NCBI GenBank assembly: GCA_021850555.1
Contig: JAJZLX010000414.1
Coordinates: 1-15,483, forward strand
DNA length: 15,483 nt
Origin: Pseudomonadota bacterium
GTDB lineage: Bacteria; Pseudomonadota; Gammaproteobacteria; Steroidobacterales; Steroidobacteraceae
Direction: 5' to 3'
How positions within the stretch are numbered: the stretch's first letter is position 1; each line of letters starts with the position of its first letter. The translations under genes were made by a program, and so were the position numbers. The notes beneath the pieces were generated by a model. The model was not told the origin of the DNA. It saw only the letters and a list, made by a program, of their open reading frames with translations, and made no database searches. This document shows positions 3,551 through 15,483 of the stretch, piece by piece.

Positions 3551-4506
3551 GGTACCGCCTCGGCAGAGGCGTCCCGACTGACAGGCACCGACTCCATTCG
3601 CAACGACGTGCCGGGCGAATCGCGGACAGGGTCGGGCACGCGCATGCCGTTCATGCGACGCAGCAGATACGGCGCCGGGGTGCAACGAGCATATGCCACA
3701 AGGCAGTGAAGGCGATTTGCGCCAACTTCGATGCGAGCCGGCTCGCTCTCGAGAAATACGGCCTTACCTGCATCGACCTCGATCGACTCGACCCGGCCGG
3801 CGCCGGCGAGAATGAACAGCCAGGTCTCCGCCGCGGCGTCCAGTTCCCGCACCACTCCAGGCGCGAGCGTCATGCGTTCGAGCACGAAATGCGGGCTGGC
3901 AACGAGCAATGTTCTTGCCGCGGTCAGCTTGCGCGGGGGGCTGCGCGGTGCGGACCGTCCGGCACTCGCAGCCGCCACCGCCATATCGGCGTGAAGCTTG
4001 CGTGACCTGCCGTCCTCGAACGGCCGGAACGTCGCGGCAGTTCTCGGCCGGATCTCGACGATGACCAGCCCAGCCCCGATGGCGTGGATCGTGCCCGGAG
4101 GCACGAACGTGGAGTCGCCCGTTCGGACCGCCTGCCATTGAACTCGTTCGCCGATCGTGCCGTCGCGGATGCACGCCCGCAACTCGGCGGGAGTCAGCTG
4201 TTGCTTCAATCCGACGGCTATATGGGCCTCTGGGCTGGCCGAGAGGACGTACAGCGCCTCGCACGTGCCGTGCACCAGACCGCTCGAGCGCGCACGCGCC
4301 TCATCAGGATGCGTCTGACTCAAGAGCGGCTCATCGGTGAAGATCAGTTTCAGCTGCAGGGTCGGCGCGGGTGCCGACGGATCAGCGCGCTCGAACCAGG
4401 CTTCCCCGATCGCTGCCAACGGGTCGTGATAGACGTTCCAGGGCCTCAGGTCGGTGCGGCCCCAGGGCTTGGGTATGATGTGAATGTGGGCCTGTTCGAC
4501 CGCCAT
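3547..4506 (-). CDS. manA: Class I mannose-6-phosphate isomerase
   Basis: This 319-residue cupin protein interconverts mannose-6-phosphate and fructose-6-phosphate in the cytoplasm. It is shorter than the E. coli enzyme (about 390) and similar to the compact bacterial forms. The zinc ligands are recognisable: Q64 and H66 in SQTHPDE, E83 in CEALYVL, and H141 in PPGTIHAIGAG. The downstream active-site strand EIRPRTAATFRPFEDGR (151-167) matches the family pattern in which Glu and Arg line the pocket. The start is supported by AGGAG a few bases upstream of ATG 4506. The extreme C-terminus (about 290-319) is Ser/Pro-rich and less family-like. It is the first gene of a three-gene coupled operon, with its TGA overlapping the GTG of the glycosyltransferase. 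Its context suggests it supplies or drains mannose phosphates for the other two enzymes. The gene symbol follows the family; substrate specificity is not proven. Confidence 0.85.
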   Translation of the reverse strand: MAVEQAHIHIIPKPWGRTDLRPWNVYHDPLAAIGEAWFERADPSAPAPTLQLKLIFTDEPLLSQTHPDEARARSSGLVHGTCEALYVLSASPEAHIAVGLKQQLTPAELRACIRDGTIGERVQWQAVRTGDSTFVPPGTIHAIGAGLVIVEIRPRTAATFRPFEDGRSRKLHADMAVAAASAGRSAPRSPPRKLTAARTLLVASPHFVLERMTLAPGVVRELDAAAETWLFILAGAGRVESIEVDAGKAVFLESEPARIEVGANRLHCLVAYARCTPAPYLLRRMNGMRVPDPVRDSPGTSLRMESVPVSRDASAEAVP

Positions 4507-4606
4507 GAGGGTCTCCTGGTTGAGGACGCGGAACGCGGTGTGCCACCCTCGCCTCCTCTGACGTCGGGGTGCCTCTGCTCAGGCGCGGGCGGCAGCATCC
4601 ATCCGA

Positions 4607-8346: not shown

Positions 8347-8514
8347 GGCAGGCGGCAAGTCGCCTCGGTGAAGAGTCGGTTGGCGGGCAGCCAACGGAAA
8401 CGAAAGCCCGGCAGCTCGGTTCCAGCCGGTGAACTGCCCACTTGCATCATGGCATTTGTTGCCATTAACTGGCATCCCGTCACCCCGATGAATCGGTGCT
8501 TCCATGGAGAGAGC

Positions 8515-8766
8515 ATGAACATTTCCCTGCCGACGCCGCTCAAACGGTTCGTCGATGAACAGATCGCCGCCGGCCGCTACAGCAGCGCCAGCGAGTACGT
8601 CCGGGACCTGATCCGCGGCGATGAGAAACGCCGGGCGGAAGAGCGCCTCGAGGCGCTGCTGCTGGAAGGGCTGGAGGGTCAGGAAACACCACTGACCCGG
8701 GAAGACTGGACCGCTATCCGTAAAGAAGCCCTCTCGCGCGTGGCGGCTCACAAGAAGCGCACGTAG
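8515..8766 (+). CDS. parD: ParD-family antitoxin (ribbon-helix-helix)
   Basis: This 83-residue protein starts at ATG 8515 with GGAG five bases upstream. The N-terminus MNISLPTPLKRFVDEQIAAG is the beta-strand and first helix of a CopG/ParD ribbon-helix-helix domain. RYSSASEYVRDLIR (21-34) is the characteristic second helix. The charged C-terminal part (35-83: EERLEALLLEGLEGQ, then TREDWTAIRKEAL) is the typical toxin-wrapping tail of type II ParD antitoxins. As a dimer it should bind its own promoter and neutralise a ParE partner. The partner lies immediately downstream but is broken, so this antitoxin is now an orphan unless it works in trans. The repeats TGGCA/TTGCCA at about 8450-8474 upstream could be its operator. 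Confidence 0.85.
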   Translation: MNISLPTPLKRFVDEQIAAGRYSSASEYVRDLIRGDEKRRAEERLEALLLEGLEGQETPLTREDWTAIRKEALSRVAAHKKRT

Positions 8767-9144: not shown

Positions 9145-9357
9145 CTATAACAAGCCCGTCGCGGTCTTCCACAGCAGCACCCCCACACCGAGAGCGGCGG
9201 CGATGAAGGGTATCCACGACTTTTTGCCGTCATCCCCGTTCTCAACGGCCTAGTACCACCAGATTCCCATCGCCACCGACGCTCCCGCGAGCTCGGCGCC
9301 CGCATCCTGGACGGTCTCGCAGCTGCCGCAGCCCAGTGCGGCGTTCAATGTGCCCAT
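9145..9357 (-). pseudogene. Small membrane protein with an internal TAG
   Basis: From ATG 9357 the minus strand encodes MGTLNAALGCGSCETVQDAG and then AELAGASVAMGIWWY, followed by TAG at 9252-9250. It resumes in the same frame as AVENGDDGKKSWIPFIAAAL and then GVGVLLWKTATGLL to TAG 9147-9145. Without the internal stop this would be a 70-residue protein with two hydrophobic segments around a charged NGDDGKK loop. Just upstream on the same strand, another frame gives a charged helical stretch (RDAERHAQAMQGLAGRVQEA), possibly the end of a second broken gene. I do not recognise the family. The size and layout would suit a plasmid or phage accessory protein. It sits beside the first tRNA fragment and is probably integration debris. 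Confidence 0.4.
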
Positions 9358-9621
9358 CAGACGCTCGGACCCGCCCACGGGCCTCCTGCACGCGACCCGC
9401 CAAGCCCTGCATGGCCTGCGCATGACGCTCGGCGTCGCGCGCGGCCTCCTCTGTAGATGGGGATTGAAAGCGCTATGAGCATCGGATGGGAAAATTTGTA
9501 TCGATCCACAGGCTCAAGCGTATTGGGCTCGCGTCTGCGCCGCAGGTCCCTGGATAATTCCCAGTCGACCCAGAACACAGTCTTGGTTGGGGACACAATC
9601 GGTTCGGCAATCCTTCGTCAG

Positions 9622-9669
9622 TATTGGCCGGGGCCGGGAGATTCGAACTCCCGACCCTCTGCTCCCAAA
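9622..9669 (-). repeat. Displaced tRNA-Pro 3' fragment, att copy A
   Basis: Read on the minus strand this is the 3' part of a tRNA: the end of the anticodon loop (TTTGGGAGCAG), the variable region, a T arm GGGAG-TTCGAAT-CTCCC, and an acceptor strand ending in CCA. No 5' half is present. It matches copy B (12124-12171) at 45 of 48 positions in direct orientation. It is interpreted as an old attachment-site junction. Confidence 0.75.
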
Positions 9670-9675
9670 AGATCA

Positions 9676-9709
9676 ATGACATACCGACATACATGTCATA
9701 TGCTTTGAC
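9676..9709. promoter_or_regulatory. Probable VapBC operator/promoter region
   Basis: An inverted repeat ATGACAT (9676-9682) / ATGTCAT (9693-9699) is followed by CATATG-containing sequence and TTGACA just before the vapB start. Repeated GACATA-like half sites suggest binding by the VapB/VapBC complex. There is no ribosome-binding site between here and ATG 9712, so the message may be leaderless. Confidence 0.45.
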
Positions 9710-9711
9710 AT

Positions 9712-9957
9712 ATGAGAACCACCGTACGCCTGGATGAAGCCCTCATGAAGCGTGCCCGCCAGGAAGCGGCTCGTCGCGGCATTACGCTCACGTCGCTCAT
9801 CGAGCAAGGGCTTCGGCTTGCGCTGCGCGCCCCCCTGAAGCGCCCGCAGCACCCTGCCGTATCGCTTCCTGAATGCCACGCCGGAGGTGGCGTCCTGCCG
9901 GGCGTGGATTTGAATGACAGCGCGGGCGTACTCGAGCGGATGGAAAGTCGCGATTGA
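9712..9957 (+). CDS. vapB: VapB-type antitoxin
   Basis: This 81-residue protein begins MRTTVRLDEALMKRARQEAA, a ribbon-helix-helix DNA-binding domain of the kind that pairs with PIN toxins. RRGITLTSLIEQGLRLAL forms the second helix. The C-terminal half (about 45-81) is flexible, with GGGVLPGVDLND resembling the toxin-binding tail of VapB antitoxins ('lpvf-gggl-pgvdl'). The stop TGA (9955-9957) overlaps the TTG start of vapC (TTGA), so the pair is translationally coupled. No Shine-Dalgarno sequence precedes the ATG. It should repress its own promoter and block the VapC nuclease. The pair lies between two tRNA-Pro fragments, as expected for island cargo. Confidence 0.85.
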   Translation: MRTTVRLDEALMKRARQEAARRGITLTSLIEQGLRLALRAPLKRPQHPAVSLPECHAGGGVLPGVDLNDSAGVLERMESRD

Positions 9958-10379
9958 TCCTGTGCGACGTCAATGTACTGATCTACGCCTTTCGCTCAGA
10001 CGCCGAAGATCACCCGCGACACAGGGCATGGCTCGAATCGGTGATCAACGGGCCAGCCGCTTACGGCGTCGCACCTCAGGTACTCGTCAGCGTCGTGCGC
10101 ATCTGTACCCATCCGCGGATTTTTGCACGTCCCAGCTCCCTGGATGATGCCTTCGAGTTTTGTCGCGTTGTTGTTGGACAACCCTGCGCGACGGTGATCG
10201 TGCCCGGCGAACGTCACTGGTCGATATTCGAATCCCTGTGCCAGGATTCCAAAGCCACGGGAAACATTGTGCAAGACGCTTGGTTTGCGGCCCTGGCCAT
10301 CGAATCCGGCTGCGAATGGATTACCACGGATCGCGACTACGCGAGATTCAAGGGCCTCACGTGGCGACCCCCATTCTGA
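9954..10379 (+). CDS. vapC: VapC-type PIN-domain toxin ribonuclease
   Basis: This 141-residue PIN protein opens MILCDVNVLIYAFRSDAEDH, with the first catalytic Asp at D5. D108 in NIVQDAWFAALA and D126/D128 in ITTDRDYARF complete the acidic metal site. RICTHPRIF (49-57) is typical of a VapC subgroup in which the usual second-motif Glu is absent; Ser/Val stand near position 46 here. Its length matches the family. VapC toxins cut RNA, often initiator tRNA or rRNA, with magnesium. The TTG start at 9954 overlaps the vapB stop and is the only sensible start. No frameshift or missing Asp is seen, so the toxin appears functional. No terminator is evident after it. Confidence 0.87.
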   Translation: MILCDVNVLIYAFRSDAEDHPRHRAWLESVINGPAAYGVAPQVLVSVVRICTHPRIFARPSSLDDAFEFCRVVVGQPCATVIVPGERHWSIFESLCQDSKATGNIVQDAWFAALAIESGCEWITTDRDYARFKGLTWRPPF

Positions 10380-10721
10380 TCTATTACGGCCGATCGCAAG
10401 CGCGAGCGGCTGCGAAAAACTTGAGCACGAACGTAGTTCCGCGCCGATCGGGCTAACCGCAAGACACAGGGAACTGCATGACGCGCTGGGCCGCCGAGCT
10501 GCACGTGCCGGCCAACTGCCGTCATTGCGTCCGTAGTGGATCCTGCGGTACAGCGGACCGGCACCAGCGCCAAGACCCGTGTGCAATGCGCGTGTCTCAC
10601 ATTTCACTAACCGCCCGAACGGACCGCGACTGTCTTCCTCACCCCGTGTGCGTCTACCCAATGATTGAGACGCTCAGAATCCCTCATGGGCGCTTCTGCC
10701 AGCCGGTACACAGCGTGGTAC
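10380..10721. other. Stretch without recognisable gene between vapC and the IS
   Basis: About 340 bp. Open frames on both strands lack family motifs and good ribosome-binding sites. I see no terminator or repeat other than the target-site TAC at 10719-10721. Confidence 0.5.
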
Positions 10722-10777
10722 TGATCTTGACCCGCTTTCGTGGACACCCGACAGTGTGAATAGTTGAGGAGTCCGTC

Positions 10778-11098
10778 ATGGCCAAGTCAAAGCATGCAAA
10801 GCGATACCCGAAGGAGTTCCACCGCCAGATGGTGGAGCTGCATCGGGCGGGGCGAACGCTGTCTGAGCTTTCGCGTGAGTTCGGCTGCTCGCAGTGGGCG
10901 ATCAGCCGGTGGGTCAAGCAAGCCGATCGCGACGCCGGTCGGGGAGACGGTGGGCTGACCACCGAGGAGCGCCAGGAGCTCGCGCAGCTACGCCGGGAAA
11001 ACAAGCGGTTGAAGGTGGAGAGGGAAATCTTGGGAAAAGCCGCGGCCTGGTTTGCGCAGGAGAGCGCTCCGAATACGAAACGGTCTTCGGATTCGTAA
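10778..11098 (+). CDS. IS3-family transposase OrfA
   Basis: This 106-residue protein starts at ATG 10778 with GAGGAG six bases upstream. KRYPKEFHRQMVELHRAGRT and then LSELSREFGCSQWAISRWVK form the helix-turn-helix that binds the element's terminal inverted repeats. Residues about 62-95 (TTEERQELAQLRRENKRLKV and on) form the leucine-zipper-like coiled coil typical of IS3 OrfA. It can act as a regulator alone or as the N-terminal half of the OrfAB fusion. The reading frame contains the heptamer GGGAAAA at 11032-11038 in the X-XXY-YYZ register, and OrfB continues in the -1 frame from there. No lesions are seen. Confidence 0.9.
   Translation: MAKSKHAKRYPKEFHRQMVELHRAGRTLSELSREFGCSQWAISRWVKQADRDAGRGDGGLTTEERQELAQLRRENKRLKVEREILGKAAAWFAQESAPNTKRSSDS
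11032..11038 (+). promoter_or_regulatory. -1 programmed frameshift heptamer between orfA and orfB
   Basis: G-GGA-AAA is in register with orfA. Slipping back one base moves ribosomes into orfB, giving an OrfAB protein of about 386 residues. No ATG, GTG or TTG that could start orfB lies near the junction, which supports frameshifting as the expression route. Confidence 0.65.
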
Positions 11099-11937
11099 GC
11101 GCGAACCAGGATCACTATCCGGTGGGGACGATGTGCCGGCTGCTGGAGGTGTCGAAGAGCGGGTTCTATGCCCGAGAGAGCCGACCGCTGTCGGCTCATG
11201 CGCGCAAGGACGTCGAGCTGCGAGCACTGATCCACCAGATCTACGAGCACTCCCACCGCACCTACGGTGCCCCGCGAGTCCAGGTGGAGTTGCGGGTGAC
11301 ATACGGGGTGCGTGTGGGACGCAAGCGGGTAGCGCGGCTGATGCGCCAGGCAGGGCTCGAGGGCGTGCAGAAGCGCCGCTTCCGTTGCACGACGCGGCCC
11401 GGGGCGCCCGAGCACTTTGCGCCGGATCTGGTCGAGCGGCAGTTCGTCGCCGAGCGGCCGGATGCGCTGTGGGTAGCCGACGTGACCTACGTTCCGACGC
11501 TCGAAGGCTTCCTGTACTTGGCGATCGTCCTCGATGTGTTCTCGCGCCTGGTGGTGGGGTGGGCGATGGCCGGTCGGCTCGCAAGCCGGCTGGTGTTGCA
11601 GGCGCTGGAGATGGCCTACGCAGCACGCGGGCCGCGCGCCGTGATCCACCATTCCGACCACGGGAGCGAGTACACCGCGATTGCCTTCGGCACCCGCTGC
11701 ACGAAGCTCGGGGTACGGCCGTCGATGGGCAGCGTCGGCGATTGTTACGATAACGCGATGGCCGAAAGCTTTTTCTCCACATTGGAATGCGAGGTGTTGG
11801 ATCGCAATCGCTTCCGGACTCGAGACGAAGCGCGCTCGGTGATTTTCTGTTGGATCAATTCGTGGTATAATACAACACGTCGACATTCGTCGATCGGTTA
11901 CGCTTCTCCACAGGAGTTCGAACGACGCTTCACCTAG
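11038..11937 (+). CDS. IS3-family transposase OrfB (DDE integrase domain)
   Basis: This is the catalytic half of the transposase, entered by -1 frameshifting at 11038. The N-terminal region SANQDHYPVGTMCRLLEVSK is the usual HTH_21-type domain, with HRTYGAPRVQVEL after it. The retroviral-integrase-like core shows the three acidic residues: D in WVADVTYVP, D in HHSDHGSEY, and E in AMAESFFSTLE, in normal order and spacing. The C-terminus SWYNTTRRHSSIGYASPQEF is a family signature. The frame is open to TAG 11935-11937 with no lesions, so the element may still be active. The frame also extends upstream of the slip site inside orfA, but no credible independent start is seen there. Confidence 0.9.
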   Translation, partial: SRGLVCAGERSEYETVFGFVSANQDHYPVGTMCRLLEVSKSGFYARESRPLSAHARKDVELRALIHQIYEHSHRTYGAPRVQVELRVTYGVRVGRKRVARLMRQAGLEGVQKRRFRCTTRPGAPEHFAPDLVERQFVAERPDALWVADVTYVPTLEGFLYLAIVLDVFSRLVVGWAMAGRLASRLVLQALEMAYAARGPRAVIHHSDHGSEYTAIAFGTRCTKLGVRPSMGSVGDCYDNAMAESFFSTLECEVLDRNRFRTRDEARSVIFCWINSWYNTTRRHSSIGYASPQEFERRFT

Positions 11938-12123
11938 AATCACCGGAGCTACACCCGGAGCTTCTCCCCGCGCAAGGCGCGGTGAGACTGCATTGCGTGG
12001 AAGACCACGGTGAGAAAGATCCAGACTGAAGAGGAGACAAGACACAGCCAAGCTTACAAACTCAAGACCGTCCACGAAATCGGGTCAACCCCATACAGAA
12101 TGCTCTGCCGGACCTCTCGTAAA

Positions 12124-12175
12124 TATTGGTCGGGGCAGGGAGATTCGAACTCCAGACCCTCTGCTCCCAAAGCAG
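12124..12175 (-). repeat. Displaced tRNA-Pro(UGG) 3' fragment, att copy B
   Basis: On the minus strand this reads CTGC-TTTGGGA-GCAG, an anticodon stem-loop with anticodon TGG, then the variable region, a T arm around TTCGAAT, and the acceptor strand TGCCCCG-A-CCA. The tRNA 5' half is absent to the right. The first 48 bp repeat copy A (9622-9669). The T stem has one mispair, consistent with a non-functional fragment. The integrase gene starts 155 bp to the right. Confidence 0.8.
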
Positions 12176-12329: not shown

Positions 12330-13583
12330 GTGGCAAAGGGCTTCCCCAAAGGCAGGCACAGGCAGACACAGCCGCAGCGGATGGTCGCGACCCGCGTCGC
12401 CACCCTCCCCCCTGGCACCTACACCGACCCGGGGCAGACAGGACTTCAGCTGCGCGTGCGCGCGAAGCGCGGCGGAGCAAGTCGGACATGGCTACTGCGT
12501 TTCAAGTTCAAGGGCGAGGAGACCCGCATCCTGCTCGGTCACTTCCCGCAGACAAACCTCGATACAGCGCGCGGAGAGGCTCGCCGGCTCCGCGAACTCG
12601 CGGACCAAGGGATTGACCCCCGGCGCGCCCGATCGAGGCGCCGGGAACGAACTGCGGCGGCTGCCGCGGCATCCGGCGCCCCTGATGCGCACAGCGTCGA
12701 GTTTCTCGCCAGCGAGTTCCTGGAGCGCTACGTCAAGCCGCACCGTCGACGGCCTGAGTACGCAGAGTGGCTACTGAAGCGCGATGCGCTCGAGGAATGG
12801 AAAGGCCGAGACGCTCGCACCATAACCCCGGGCGATGTCGTCACCTTGCTGGACGGTATCGTCGAGCGCGGCGCGCCGGTATTGGCGAATCGCACCAGCG
12901 CGCTGCTCTCGCAGATGTTCCGCTTCGGCGTGCAGCGCCGCATCGTCGACCAGAGCCCGGTTCAGCTCTTAATGCGTCCCGGTGGCCGCGAGAAACCCCG
13001 CGAGCGCGTGTTATCGGACGACGAGCTGCGGGCGTTCTTCGCCGATCCGATCGCCTGCACGCGGCACGCAAAGCTCGCGCACGTGGTGACGGTGCTCCTG
13101 CTCACCGGGCAGCGGCGCGGAGAACTGGCTCGAGCCAAGTGGTCCGAAATCAACTTCGACGAGAAGACCTGGGTCATTCCCGACGAGAACTCAAAGAGCG
13201 GCCGCGGGCACGTGGTGCCGCTGTCAGAGTGGGCGCTCGCCGATCTGCGGGCACTCAAGGCACTCGCCGAGCGATCCCGATACGTGCTCCCGAGCGACGA
13301 TGGCAAACAAGCGGCCGACCCGGCCCTGCTCACCCGCGGACTGGCGCGCTGCCTTGGGCGCTTCAAGAAACGCGGGATTGCGCCGTTCAATCTGCACGAC
13401 CTGCGCCGAACCTGTCGCACCGGCCTCGCGCGGCTGAAGGTGGAGCCGCATATCGCAGAGCGCGTGCTCAATCATGTGCAGGCGGGCGTCGTCAGGGTTT
13501 ATGACCGGCATGCGTACTTGACCGAGAAGCGCGAGGCGCTGGAGAAGTGGGCGGCACACTTGCGCAGCATGGCGCCCGGATAA
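12330..13583 (+). CDS. int: P4-type tyrosine integrase
   Basis: This 417-residue site-specific recombinase of the P4/CP4 integrase group starts at GTG 12330. The N-terminal DUF4102-like arm-binding part shows TDPGQTGLQLRVRAKRG (32-48) and TRILLGHFPQTNLDTARGEA (65-84). The middle is the core-binding SAM-like domain (about 120-215). The catalytic domain has R262 in LLLTGQRRGEL, a beta-strand Lys near 289, H356 and R359 in FNLHDLRR, H382 in VLNHVQAG, and the likely nucleophile Y391 in VYDRHAYLTEKREAL. All the key residues are present. It lies 155 bp from the tRNA-Pro fragment and is transcribed away from it. This is the standard arrangement for an island that integrates into a tRNA 3' end. The Shine-Dalgarno is weak. 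It appears intact. Confidence 0.93.
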   Translation: MAKGFPKGRHRQTQPQRMVATRVATLPPGTYTDPGQTGLQLRVRAKRGGASRTWLLRFKFKGEETRILLGHFPQTNLDTARGEARRLRELADQGIDPRRARSRRRERTAAAAAASGAPDAHSVEFLASEFLERYVKPHRRRPEYAEWLLKRDALEEWKGRDARTITPGDVVTLLDGIVERGAPVLANRTSALLSQMFRFGVQRRIVDQSPVQLLMRPGGREKPRERVLSDDELRAFFADPIACTRHAKLAHVVTVLLLTGQRRGELARAKWSEINFDEKTWVIPDENSKSGRGHVVPLSEWALADLRALKALAERSRYVLPSDDGKQAADPALLTRGLARCLGRFKKRGIAPFNLHDLRRTCRTGLARLKVEPHIAERVLNHVQAGVVRVYDRHAYLTEKREALEKWAAHLRSMAPG

Positions 13584-13820
13584 CATGAGGCTGCTTGACG
13601 CCCCACGATGCGAACAGAAAACAGATAACTCTGGAGAATGGGCACCATGCACGATTCAGAAGCGACCAACTGATAACACGTGTTTGCACGCGCGCACTTG
13701 ACGGTTCATGCAAACTATGATTCACTCTCAGCCGCGAGCATGAAGTTCGAAGCGCGCCGAACGCCCGCCAGGATGGCGAACCGCAAAGGAAGCGGAATAG
13801 GCCGGCTGGTAGCGACAATT
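13584..13820. other. Intergenic leader with an inverted repeat
   Basis: GTTTGCA (13682-13688) and TGCAAAC (13709-13715) form an inverted repeat around TTGACG, and TATGAT lies at 13716-13721. This could be a promoter/operator for the structured region that follows, although the hexamer spacing (12 bp) is too short for a standard promoter. A short open frame from ATG 13740 to 13892 runs through the structured RNA (MKFEARRTPARMANRKGSGI and on). I cannot say whether it is translated. Confidence 0.35.
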
Positions 13821-13908
13821 AGACGCACCGGCAAAACGCCCGGAAATTCCCCACGGGGAAGGTGCGTCTCGATTAATCACGTAAGCCGCTGATTTTTCAG
13901 CGGCTTTT
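13821..13908 (+). ncRNA. Candidate structured RNA ending in an intrinsic terminator (C4-like?)
   Basis: AGACGCACC (13821-13829) pairs with GGTGCGTCT (13861-13869). Inside are two smaller hairpins, GGC-AAAAC-GCC (13830-13840) and TTCCCC-AC-GGGGAA (13847-13860), giving a three-way junction. A strong terminator hairpin follows at 13883-13906. The size, the structure, and the position between a P4-type integrase and an AlpA/primase operon recall the C4/CI antisense immunity RNAs of phages P1, P7 and P4. That comparison is from memory and not from a covariance search. Confidence 0.5.
13883..13908 (+). terminator. Rho-independent terminator 1
   Basis: AAGCCGCTGA and TCAGCGGCTT form a 10-bp stem with a TTTT loop, followed by TT. 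It is the first of three consecutive hairpins. Confidence 0.85.
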
Positions 13909-13929
13909 CCATTTCAGCTTTCCGTAAAT

Positions 13930-13961
13930 GACCCCGCCCCGAGCGGGGTCTCGTCGTTTTT
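13930..13961 (+). terminator. Terminator-like hairpin 2
   Basis: GACCCCGC and GCGGGGTC form an 8-bp stem with the loop CCCGA, followed by a T-rich stretch ending in five Ts. Confidence 0.7.
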
Positions 13962-13971
13962 CACCCCAAAC

Positions 13972-14000
13972 AGCCCCGCCCCGAGCGGGGCTTTTTCGTT
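13972..14000 (+). terminator. Terminator hairpin 3, same core as hairpin 2
   Basis: AGCCCCGC and GCGGGGCT form an 8-bp stem with the same loop CCCGA, followed by TTTTCGTT. It ends 18 bases before the next start codon, so transcription of the operon must read through it or be controlled at it. Confidence 0.8.
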
Positions 14001-14017
14001 TCTGGAGCAAGCAAGCC

Positions 14018-14239
14018 ATGTCGACTCCGACCAGTCTCGATCAGTTCGTTGCCGCGCCCGCCATCCTCTGGCCAATCGACCTCGAACGCCATCTCTCAAT
14101 TTCCACCCCGACCCGTTGGCGCTGGGAGCGCGCCGGGAAACTCCCGCCCCGCGATGCGTACATCAACGGCGAACCAGTTGGCTGGCTGCGCAGCACGATC
14201 GACGCAATGCTGAACGGTGAGCGCCACCGCGCCGCCTGA
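14018..14239 (+). CDS. AlpA-like helix-turn-helix regulator
   Basis: This 73-residue protein starts at ATG 14018 with GGAG 10 bases upstream. LERHLSISTPTRWRWERAGK (about 22-41) followed by LPPRDAYINGEPVGWLRSTI matches the MerR/AlpA-type winged helix pattern: 'lgiS-sTlyRwe--G--P-p--i-g--vgW-r--i--w'. AlpA of P4-like elements activates excision or integrase genes. Small proteins of this form also act as excisionases. It is the first gene after the terminator array and probably the first of the replication/regulation operon. An 81-bp gap separates it from the next gene. This gap contains the hairpin-capable GGCCGGCCCCGTTACGAGCG and its near-complement GGGAACCGGCC. Function is inferred from pattern and position. 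Confidence 0.7.
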   Translation: MSTPTSLDQFVAAPAILWPIDLERHLSISTPTRWRWERAGKLPPRDAYINGEPVGWLRSTIDAMLNGERHRAA

Positions 14240-14320
14240 CCCCACCACGATGGCCGCTCCCGGCTCCAGCAATGGAAAGGCCGGCCCCGTTACGAGCGGG
14301 AACCGGCCGGAGATCGCCAC

Positions 14321-14470
14321 ATGACAATCCTACCCTATCCGCGCCCCCCTAAAAAGCACAACCGCCGCTGTGCCGCATGCTCGCGCCCGGCGCGCACTAT
14401 TTACTGTCCGGCCTGCGCGAACGCATACCCGGCTCTCACTCGGCTCCTCGCCGAATGGAGGGCGGCGTGA
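14321..14470 (+). CDS. 49-residue zinc-ribbon-like protein
   Basis: ATG 14321, preceded by GGAG at 8-base spacing, opens a short frame. MTILPYPRPPKKHNRRCAAC continues to a second CPAC, giving two CxxC pairs (C17/C20 and C29/C32) spaced as a small zinc ribbon. A helical tail (AYPALTRLLAEWRAA) follows. The stop TGA (14468-14470) overlaps the GTG start of the next gene, forming GTGA, so translation is coupled. There are no other domains. Small two-CxxC proteins are frequent in phage and island replication modules, but the role is not known. It is real by ribosome-binding site, motif and overlap, although short. Confidence 0.7.
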   Translation: MTILPYPRPPKKHNRRCAACSRPARTIYCPACANAYPALTRLLAEWRAA

Positions 14471-14943
14471 ACGCGTCCGGTCTCGTTGAGCTGCACCGCA
14501 CGATGCGCGAAGCCCAGCGTAATTACGACCGGAACGCAGCCTCGCCGGCCGCACGCGGTGAGTACATCGAGGCGCGTGCTCGTTGGCACGCGGAAAAACT
14601 CGCCGCTCGAGCGCGATTTGCCGGCGCGCGCGGATGGATCACCGCGCGGACGGCGTTCAGCCTCGAGCAGTTGGCACAGATACGCGCCGGGCGTTATTTC
14701 GCCCGCGCCGAGTCTCTCGACCGCCGGGCTTTCGATCACGCGGAATTCTTCCGCTGGCCGGCGCGCCCTTTTCGGCCCGCCGGCATCGTCGTTCACGTCT
14801 ACGCCGACGATTACACGCTGTGCGAGCAGTTGGCCGCGCGCTCCGGCCTGACGTTCGAGCCGCTGCCGATCAGCTGGTACTACCCCGGCGGCACCGGCGC
14901 TGGTGTCTACACTCGTGCCGACTCGATCGCGAGGTGCGCATGA
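14467..14943 (+). CDS. Phage/island hypothetical protein
   Basis: This 158-residue protein starts at GTG 14467, overlapping the zinc-ribbon gene stop. The N-terminal half (about 5-75) is charged and alpha-helical. The C-terminal half has the block DHAEFFRWPARPFRPAGIVV (about 90-109), then VYADDYTLCEQLAARSGLTF and PISWYYPGGTGAGVYTR. I recognise this layout from uncharacterised proteins encoded beside phage-type primases, but no activity is known to me. It has no signal peptide or membrane segment. The stop TGA (14941-14943) overlaps the ATG of the primase-like gene (ATGA), so three genes in a row are coupled. The open frame extends upstream to 14377, but the overlap decides the start. Confidence 0.7.
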   Translation: MNASGLVELHRTMREAQRNYDRNAASPAARGEYIEARARWHAEKLAARARFAGARGWITARTAFSLEQLAQIRAGRYFARAESLDRRAFDHAEFFRWPARPFRPAGIVVHVYADDYTLCEQLAARSGLTFEPLPISWYYPGGTGAGVYTRADSIARCA

Positions 14944-15483
14944 ACGCCACGACGCGCGCACCGTGCCCTGTTTGCGACCGCGGACCGAAGGATACCGCCC
15001 TCAGCGTCACCGTCGACGAACGCGGCACAGTTTCCTACTGCCACCGCTGCGGATACAGTCGGGCTGAGAACTTCGAGCGCCGCCCCGCGTTCATTCCGGC
15101 GCCGAGCAGTTCTGACAAGCCACTCGACTGGAGTGAGCGGGCTGAGGCCATCTGGCGGCGCACACTACCGCTCGGCGAGATTGCGCGCGTCTACCTTCAG
15201 GGCCGCGGCTGCGTGCTCCCGCCTCGCGATGGCGACCTGCGATTTCTCCCTGGCTCTGACCGTCACGCGCCGAGCCTCTGTGCGCGCATCACCGATTCGG
15301 TGACGGCGAAGCCGATCAGCTTGCACTTCACTCCGCTGCTGCCTGACGGCTCAGGCCACGGCGAGCGGCACCTGCTCAAAGGGCACCGGAAACAGGGAGG
15401 CGTGATTCGACTCTGGCCCAACGAAACCGTCACGACTGGACTTGCGATCGCCGAGGGAATCGAGACCGGTCTGGCCGCCGCTC
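14940..15483 (+). CDS. Zinc-finger/Toprim primase-like protein (3' end beyond right edge)
   Basis: The first 181 residues are visible. The N-terminus has a CHC2-like zinc finger, CPVCDRGPKD with YCHRCGY (C9, C12, C34, C37), which in primases recognises single-stranded DNA. The region WSERAEAIWRRTLPLGEIAR (about 64-83) is shared with phage and P4-type primase/Toprim proteins. LAIAEGIETGLAAA (168-181) is the start of the Toprim domain, with its conserved Glu at E172. The rest of Toprim and any helicase part lie beyond the window. The ATG overlaps the previous stop (ATGA). It likely primes replication of the integrative element. Whether a P4 alpha-type helicase domain or a separate helicase follows cannot be seen. 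Confidence 0.85.
   Translation, partial: MNATTRAPCPVCDRGPKDTALSVTVDERGTVSYCHRCGYSRAENFERRPAFIPAPSSSDKPLDWSERAEAIWRRTLPLGEIARVYLQGRGCVLPPRDGDLRFLPGSDRHAPSLCARITDSVTAKPISLHFTPLLPDGSGHGERHLLKGHRKQGGVIRLWPNETVTTGLAIAEGIETGLAAA

Follow-up and report, generated by a model that had tools for sequence, protein, structure and literature searches.

The integrase gene and the AlpA-primase operon of a mobile island in a member of the Steroidobacteraceae are separated by a predicted promoter, a folded leader element and three terminator hairpins (T1 to T3), and we read this arrangement, with a probability of about one half, as a terminator-gated leader whose operon would be opened when RNA polymerase overrides the hairpins. 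All positions refer to the window, the whole stretch of 15,483 nucleotides that was analysed. RNA polymerase would start at 13698-13726 and make a leader of about 174 nucleotides, the 3' half of which would fold into the element; it would normally halt at T1, with T2 and T3 catching most of the remainder, and AlpA (excision, regulation) and the primase would be made only when polymerase becomes terminator-resistant. The agent might be the leader RNA working in cis, for which HK022 putRNA and Tn916 canT are precedents, or else a factor that is loaded at the promoter in the manner of lambda Q and Pseudomonas aeruginosa AlpA. Transcription, termination efficiency, readthrough and its agent are what we infer from sequence. 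Since intrinsic terminators stop transcription by default, readthrough is what needs explaining. The order of integrase gene, promoter, leader element, terminators and alpA recurs in two of 58 genomes of the genus, here called G021 and G009.

The island, its promoter and its terminators

The island interrupts a tRNA-Pro(TGG) gene, and the DNA before it is chromosomal: positions 9219-10724 and 12094-12175 are 99.8% and 98.8% identical to genome G001, in which the two lie directly next to each other and the tRNA gene is whole. ARAGORN finds tRNA-Pro(TGG) at the G001 match to 12094-12175, and the similarity ends inside the gene. Its 3' part (12127-12175, minus strand) is the left attachment junction, and the island would start at about 12176 and continue beyond the window edge. 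The tyrosine integrase gene (int, 12330-13583, plus strand; Pfam PF00589, PF13356, PF22022) is followed by an AlpA-like excisionase/regulator gene (alpA, 14018-14239, plus strand; phrog_66, E 8.4e-05; no Pfam match at E<=0.1), a gene without family matches (14470-14943) and a primase-like gene that leaves the window (14940-15483, plus strand; DUF7146/primase-like, PF23639, E 8.6e-11; phrog_510 DNA primase, E 1.6e-15). The element and hairpins thus do lie where an earlier sequence-only reading had placed them, between the integrase and AlpA-like genes with the primase-like gene beyond. For comparison with P4 and its core genes (those for capsid size and packaging, and alpha), the part of the island inside the window shows int, the AlpA-like gene and the primase-like gene.

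Positions 14375-14528 are identical to G021 in 153 of 154 aligned columns, whereas alpA up to there is only 63.5% identical, which points to a recent mosaic exchange between islands. Relative to G001, 10725-12093 is likely an insertion sequence, with an HTH_Tnp_1 open reading frame (10778-11098), similar inverted ends, a TAC repeated on either side and ends whose sequences are found again elsewhere in G001. In the chromosomal flank, a weak, sub-cutoff ribbon-helix-helix gene followed by a PIN-domain gene (9712-10379) is likely a VapBC-type toxin-antitoxin pair, and a ParD-antitoxin-like open reading frame (PF03693) lies at 8368-8766.

The putative sigma-70 promoter (13698-13726, plus strand; TTGACG-17-TTCACT, with TG before the -10 as in an extended -10) scores 10.1 in a scan of 13560-14030 with sigma-70 base frequencies, and the second-best plus-strand candidate scores 5.5; the top scores per 470-nucleotide strand elsewhere in the window (n=56) have a median of 4.8, a 90% value of 7.3 and a maximum of 12.1. 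Minus-strand candidates within the leader region score 6.5 and 5.7. A consensus promoter scan of 13500-14400 found zero promoters, so that the call, with its weak -10 hexamer, depends on our own scoring. The best promoter of G021 is the homologous site (10.5), with none of its top eight candidates downstream (the eighth scores 4.4), and that of G009 (TTGACT-17-TATGCT, 11.3) lies upstream of all terminators, with listed downstream plus-strand candidates reaching 5.8. Because the best promoter lies upstream of T1-T3, the operon appears to be transcribed through three hairpins from a putative start site. The layout predicted for both the window and G009 has intrinsic terminators between a promoter and the first gene.

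A dyad straddles the -35, with one half upstream of it (GTTTGCA, 13682-13688) and the other in the promoter spacer (TGCAAAC, 13709-13715); it is also present in G021 and may be an operator or factor-binding site. Further upstream on the plus strand lie the repeats AAACAGATAAC (13619-13629) and CAACTGATAAC (13667-13677), and G021 has five such repeats. The span from promoter to T1 would give a leader RNA of about 174 nucleotides (13733-13906, plus strand) with T1 as its 3' end. We rejected a coding leader, as the open reading frame 13680-13892 has no family match and G021 has an early stop in that frame (by eye). A bistable leader, in which the 3' arm of the element would pair with 13747-13759, is not claimed either: the aligned site in G021 was again the best partner, and fractions of 0.146 and 0.738 of shuffles were as good. 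The 5' arm of G021 against its own leader gave 0.038, as one of five such tests.

T1 (13883-13906), T2 (13930-13950) and T3 (13972-13992), all on the plus strand, fold with z-scores of -7.34, -2.86 and -3.52 and keep 10/10, 8/8 and 8/8 pairs in G021, through one double change (in T3) and two G-U changes. A terminator scan of 13500-14400 gave four sites, of which one falls within T3, whereas shuffles gave 1.0 +/- 1.0. Folding and scan bear out the three terminator hairpins claimed earlier, with the reservation that T2 is weak as a terminator: its T run begins about 7 bases past the stem, and a stricter script counts T1 and T3 only. The core CCCCGC-CCCGA-GCGGGG, said to be shared by two of the hairpins, is identical in T2 and T3. 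T3 is followed by a T run, CTGGAG and alpA. An in-frame ATG 5' of alpA opens a reading frame across T2 and T3 (13928-14018; MTPPRAG...PPRAGLF), which is open in G021 too; in G009 a similar peptide is encoded, but that ATG is absent.

Few comparable loci have terminators in tandem ahead of alpA. Thirteen AlpA relatives in 217 genomes of the family include two (G021 and G009) with at least two terminators upstream, two with one and nine with none (for one of the nine the count covers 187 nucleotides upstream), by a script that takes slightly shorter stems than the one used for PF05930 loci and misses T2 of the window and the T1-like hairpin of G009. At PF05930 AlpA loci (30 loci, 28 scorable, from 59 positive of 229 genomes), at least two terminators in the 300 nucleotides upstream were found in 0/28 and a single one in 1; 25 loci are sound, with L211, L213 and L214 excluded because the script-chosen frame is unlike AlpA. 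Ten loci with primase relatives, some of which end short, include one, L228, where an AlpA-like gene (by eye) follows two terminators, and three others with one hairpin somewhere.

By sequence, the combination of T3 and Shine-Dalgarno is widespread in phages as a module, and it may amount to no more than a terminator with a gene behind it. At least 120 viral stretches contain its 20-mer GGGCTTTTTCGTTTCTGGAG; among 80 of them (L243-L322), the 78 loci with 150 nucleotides upstream show the hairpin in 77 cases, a second terminator-like hairpin upstream in 50 and an ATG 3-19 nucleotides downstream in 76, and many of the genes behind are tail sheath-like, some holin-like (names by eye). In other genomes, 9/10 T3-like places follow a lysine-rich gene, one in each of nine genus genomes. 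Among the distant blastn matches listed for 13560-14260, 20/20 phage rows and 19/20 plasmid rows cover the T3 stretch and the remaining plasmid row covers 14208-14250, with no useful relatives among those listed from either source.

How ordinary such terminators are, behind lysine-rich genes and in pairs at viral GGGCTTTTTCGTTTCTGGAG loci, speaks for plain insulation, in which T1-T3 would block transcription from int and the flanks, alpA and the primase gene would run on an unrecognised promoter and the element would be incidental; Tn916 T1, a terminator acting as insulator of the integrated element, is a precedent in the available part of the source (PMC11658703). The plus-strand candidates listed between the leader promoter and alpA, none of which exceeds 4.5, argue against this, as does the end of T3 only 25 nucleotides ahead of the ATG. 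We regard insulation as a serious rival, if an unlikely one, to the terminator-gated leader.

The folded element and its relatives

The DNA search of the genus genomes returned one clear relative, G021 (contig C193), and as the only further match L162 (45 bases, E 8.7e-4); among 396 order and 369 class genomes, 2 and 4 had matches, all 24 to 45 bases long and no better than E 1e-4, L162 among them. G021 is 82% identical to the window in the promoter region (13610-13732), 63% in the 5' half of the leader and nearly identical in T1 plus its upstream linker. It carries a 66-nucleotide insertion, bounded by TGCGTCTCG, which has a predicted three-way-junction fold (z -2.88) and can be aligned with the element as another copy of it; by this alignment the element is in tandem duplicate in G021. 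An integron attC site, suggested by the insertion and direct repeat, was dropped in view of attC core sequences.

A covariance model (R1) was built from the window copy and both G021 copies, which score 64.2 and 54.5 by construction. It found G009 (contig C248) at 27.4 bits, with E 0.0027 for that genome and about 0.15 over 58, and G009 appears a convincing relative by synteny more than by this score, which alone is marginal. Its order is int, promoter, element, T1-like hairpin, two further terminators, GGAG and AlpA; its integrase is identical to that of the window in 247/415 aligned columns and its AlpA has 55% identity to the AlpA-like protein. We set aside an R1 match in Pseudomonas (L072; 22.8 bits, with E 0.0085 across 90 sources) that falls within an open frame; L066 and L025 matched more weakly, and 99 further sources gave zero matches at E<=1. 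AlpA and primase scans of viral contigs, and inverted-repeat and 17-mer patterns, yielded no useful relatives. L228 (contig C72 of G004) has five dyad repeats in two groups at 3616-4576, spaced by about 66 bp, ahead of terminators in tandem and an AlpA-like gene, with palindromic cores that differ between repeats and mostly remain palindromic; as kin of the element they were rejected, the five copies having plus-strand z-scores of -1.87 to 1.47 and being more like operator dyads.

The element itself (13821-13869, plus strand) consists of a closing stem of nine pairs (13821-13829/13861-13869) around two hairpins, hp1 (13830-13832/13838-13840) and hp2 (13847-13851/13856-13860). This is the minimum free energy fold of 13821-13870, at -24.6 kcal/mol against a shuffle mean of -14.45 (z -3.35; 2/200 shuffles as good). 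In absolute terms this stability is moderate: across the whole G+C-rich window, at steps of 5 bases, 68/3087 plus-strand and 81/3087 minus-strand 50-mers fold equally well. The three-way junction proposed at this place folds as stated, but its shape is only partly conserved across copies. In the alignment of window and G021, pairing is kept in the closing stem, hp1 and T1 to T3, with two double changes, while hp2 has lost 3/5 pairs in the first G021 copy; these two sequences show no excess over shuffles (142/500 reach the values).

With four copies aligned to R1, 91.4% of the cells are paired in the closing stem, 83.3% in hp1 and 50% in hp2, in an alignment that was fitted to the structure, that includes the three rows from which R1 was built, two of them neighbours, and in which related sequences can exceed shuffles. 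Under the same provisos, four of five measures are reached by 2 to 6 of 500 shuffles and the fifth by 70: four pairs change on both sides (6/500), and the counts are 2/500 for the covariation score, 3/500 for cells paired and 70/500 for pair types. In G009, hp2 is strong (7 pairs), the element has no excess stability over shuffles (z -0.59 and 0.15) and the closing stem is missing from the minimum free energy fold of its longer leader. Covariance in homologous islands, which had been put forward as a check, gives some support to the closing stem, but a three-way junction across copies, with hp2 half paired, is not established.

The 15-mer CACGGGGAAGGTGCG (13852-13866, plus strand) is common to the window, the first G021 copy and G009. 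Its conservation while the 5' half of the leader diverges, the sRNA size of the promoter-to-T1 unit and the duplication in G021 would suit a trans-acting small RNA with T1 as its own terminator, whose loops or CACGGGGAAGGUGCG would pair with an island or helper-phage RNA, T2 and T3 belonging to a separate alpA gene. We consider this distinctly unlikely. At up to three mismatches the complement of the 15-mer is absent from the window, itself excepted, and complementarity nearby is without clear excess; the three viral matches of the extended motif lack the int-terminator layout (by eye). The 15-mer is not unique, since L229 has it once within its integrase match and three viral stretches contain it as well.

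The minus strand of the element folds equally well (-24.5 kcal/mol, z -3.25), as it might if the structure were read as DNA, whether as part of a replication origin or as a hairpin or recombination site. Repeats are also near: GATAAC repeats in the window and 107-nucleotide direct repeats in G021, at a position comparable to the crr repeats annotated between P4 int and alpha. We find such a reading very doubtful, given that the element is located between the promoter and T1, that no second copy of the 15-mer occurs in the window at up to three mismatches and that R1 scores 65.8 bits on the plus against 17 on the minus strand, though the model was built from plus-strand copies. The G021 repeats (L024, 4843-5077) are two direct copies, 88% identical, between int and the promoter, accompanied by AAACAGATAAC repeats, and the region is a possible origin or cis region.

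The question of an antisense RNA of the C4 type

The same general design, a mobile element with a leader RNA and termination ahead of a replication operon, is found in phage P4, whose CI/C4 leader RNA precedes the replication genes and controls them by termination; for this and for IsrK we draw on the accessible part of PMC4825925, and the accessible part of PMC8628076 holds nothing about immunity RNA. The 5' half of the leader also diverges between islands, as an immunity region might. However, an Rfam search found zero families at gathering score, and C4 (RF01695) is absent from 13580-14260 even at E<=5, while the gathering search recovered C4 (74.9 bits) and isrK (60.8 bits) from phage P4 as positive control. 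At E<=5, with overlapping matches within one clan merged, the region has 13 sub-threshold matches, of which isrK is best (23.4 of 50 bits, E 0.0077). We discount this match and c4-a1b1 (18.5 of 46.7 bits) as evidence, since both are minus-strand matches over the T1 palindrome; the best on the plus strand is BSnc120 (22 of 114 bits).

Nor did the search for complementarity with the leader, likewise proposed beforehand, find a clear excess over shuffles: when element or leader was paired with stretches nearby, 0.070 to 0.927 of shuffles were as good in eight tests, and 0.038 to 0.738 in five more with the stem arms alone. With neither a predicted C4-like RNA nor complementary targets found, P4-type immunity is not supported, and the terminators here, being intrinsic, require no antisense RNA to act. 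The window resembles P4 CI/C4 in its putative leader RNA ahead of replication genes and in probable control by termination, and differs in lacking a sequence or structure match and clear target complementarity. We think it very improbable that an antisense RNA like those of P4 and P1/P7 terminates transcription early here and so confers immunity. Of the switch suggested by the sequence-only reading, termination control is supported by the promoter upstream of all terminators and by the layout in two islands; the antisense mechanism is not.

Readthrough in comparable systems

For the terminator-gated leader, known systems offer models of both kinds of agent. P. aeruginosa AlpA bypasses intrinsic terminators just upstream of its target genes, as described in the accessible part of PMC7969949. 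In that system the binding element for the factor lies in the promoter between the -35 and -10. Like this system and lambda Q, the window has a predicted promoter and then one or more intrinsic terminators directly before the first gene of a phage-like operon; unlike them, its target is excision and replication and not lysis, and its AlpA-like protein is an excisionase-type regulator; the comparison with the P. aeruginosa system is one of layout. The dyad at the promoter leans towards a factor of this kind.

Folding and duplication of the element lean towards an RNA agent. HK022 putRNA has about 70 nucleotides and two stem-loops and binds RNA polymerase, according to the accessible text of PMC9378689; it too is a short folded RNA downstream of an early-operon promoter, acting on terminators further on, and in a comparison by shape alone the element differs in having one closing stem with two small inner hairpins. 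Tn916 canT, in the portion of PMC11658703 available, overrides its own T1-T3 in cis, most probably in the form of RNA, and couples expression to excision and circle formation; the active fragments span 341 to 452 nucleotides, with some shorter ones mentioned. Tn916, found in Gram-positive bacteria, is likewise an integrative element with genes behind terminators, but the present island has promoter, leader and terminators side by side within it. The same source names put and EAR as antiterminating without a protein factor, host factors not being excluded for EAR, and adds canT. The accessible part of PMC2965389 deals with premature terminators as a general phenomenon, among them prophage terminators that have come to serve as attenuators. 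Among the matches listed from the open-licence literature, judged by title and the start of the abstract, we found no paper describing this leader.

A more novel reading, which we think improbable, is that the element stands for a class of its own among cis-acting antitermination leader RNAs: like put in what it does but differently shaped, it would let polymerase past the island's three terminators. Its evolution would proceed through tandem duplication and the replacement of stems, of which G021 would be a case, and related islands would thereby acquire different specificities. If the leader belongs with put, EAR and canT, a Gram-negative integrative element would provide a compact case of such an RNA, together with a naturally duplicated variant and a diverged relative for comparison. 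If readthrough needs a helper-phage or island factor, the leader would be a switch that ties replication of the island to that factor.
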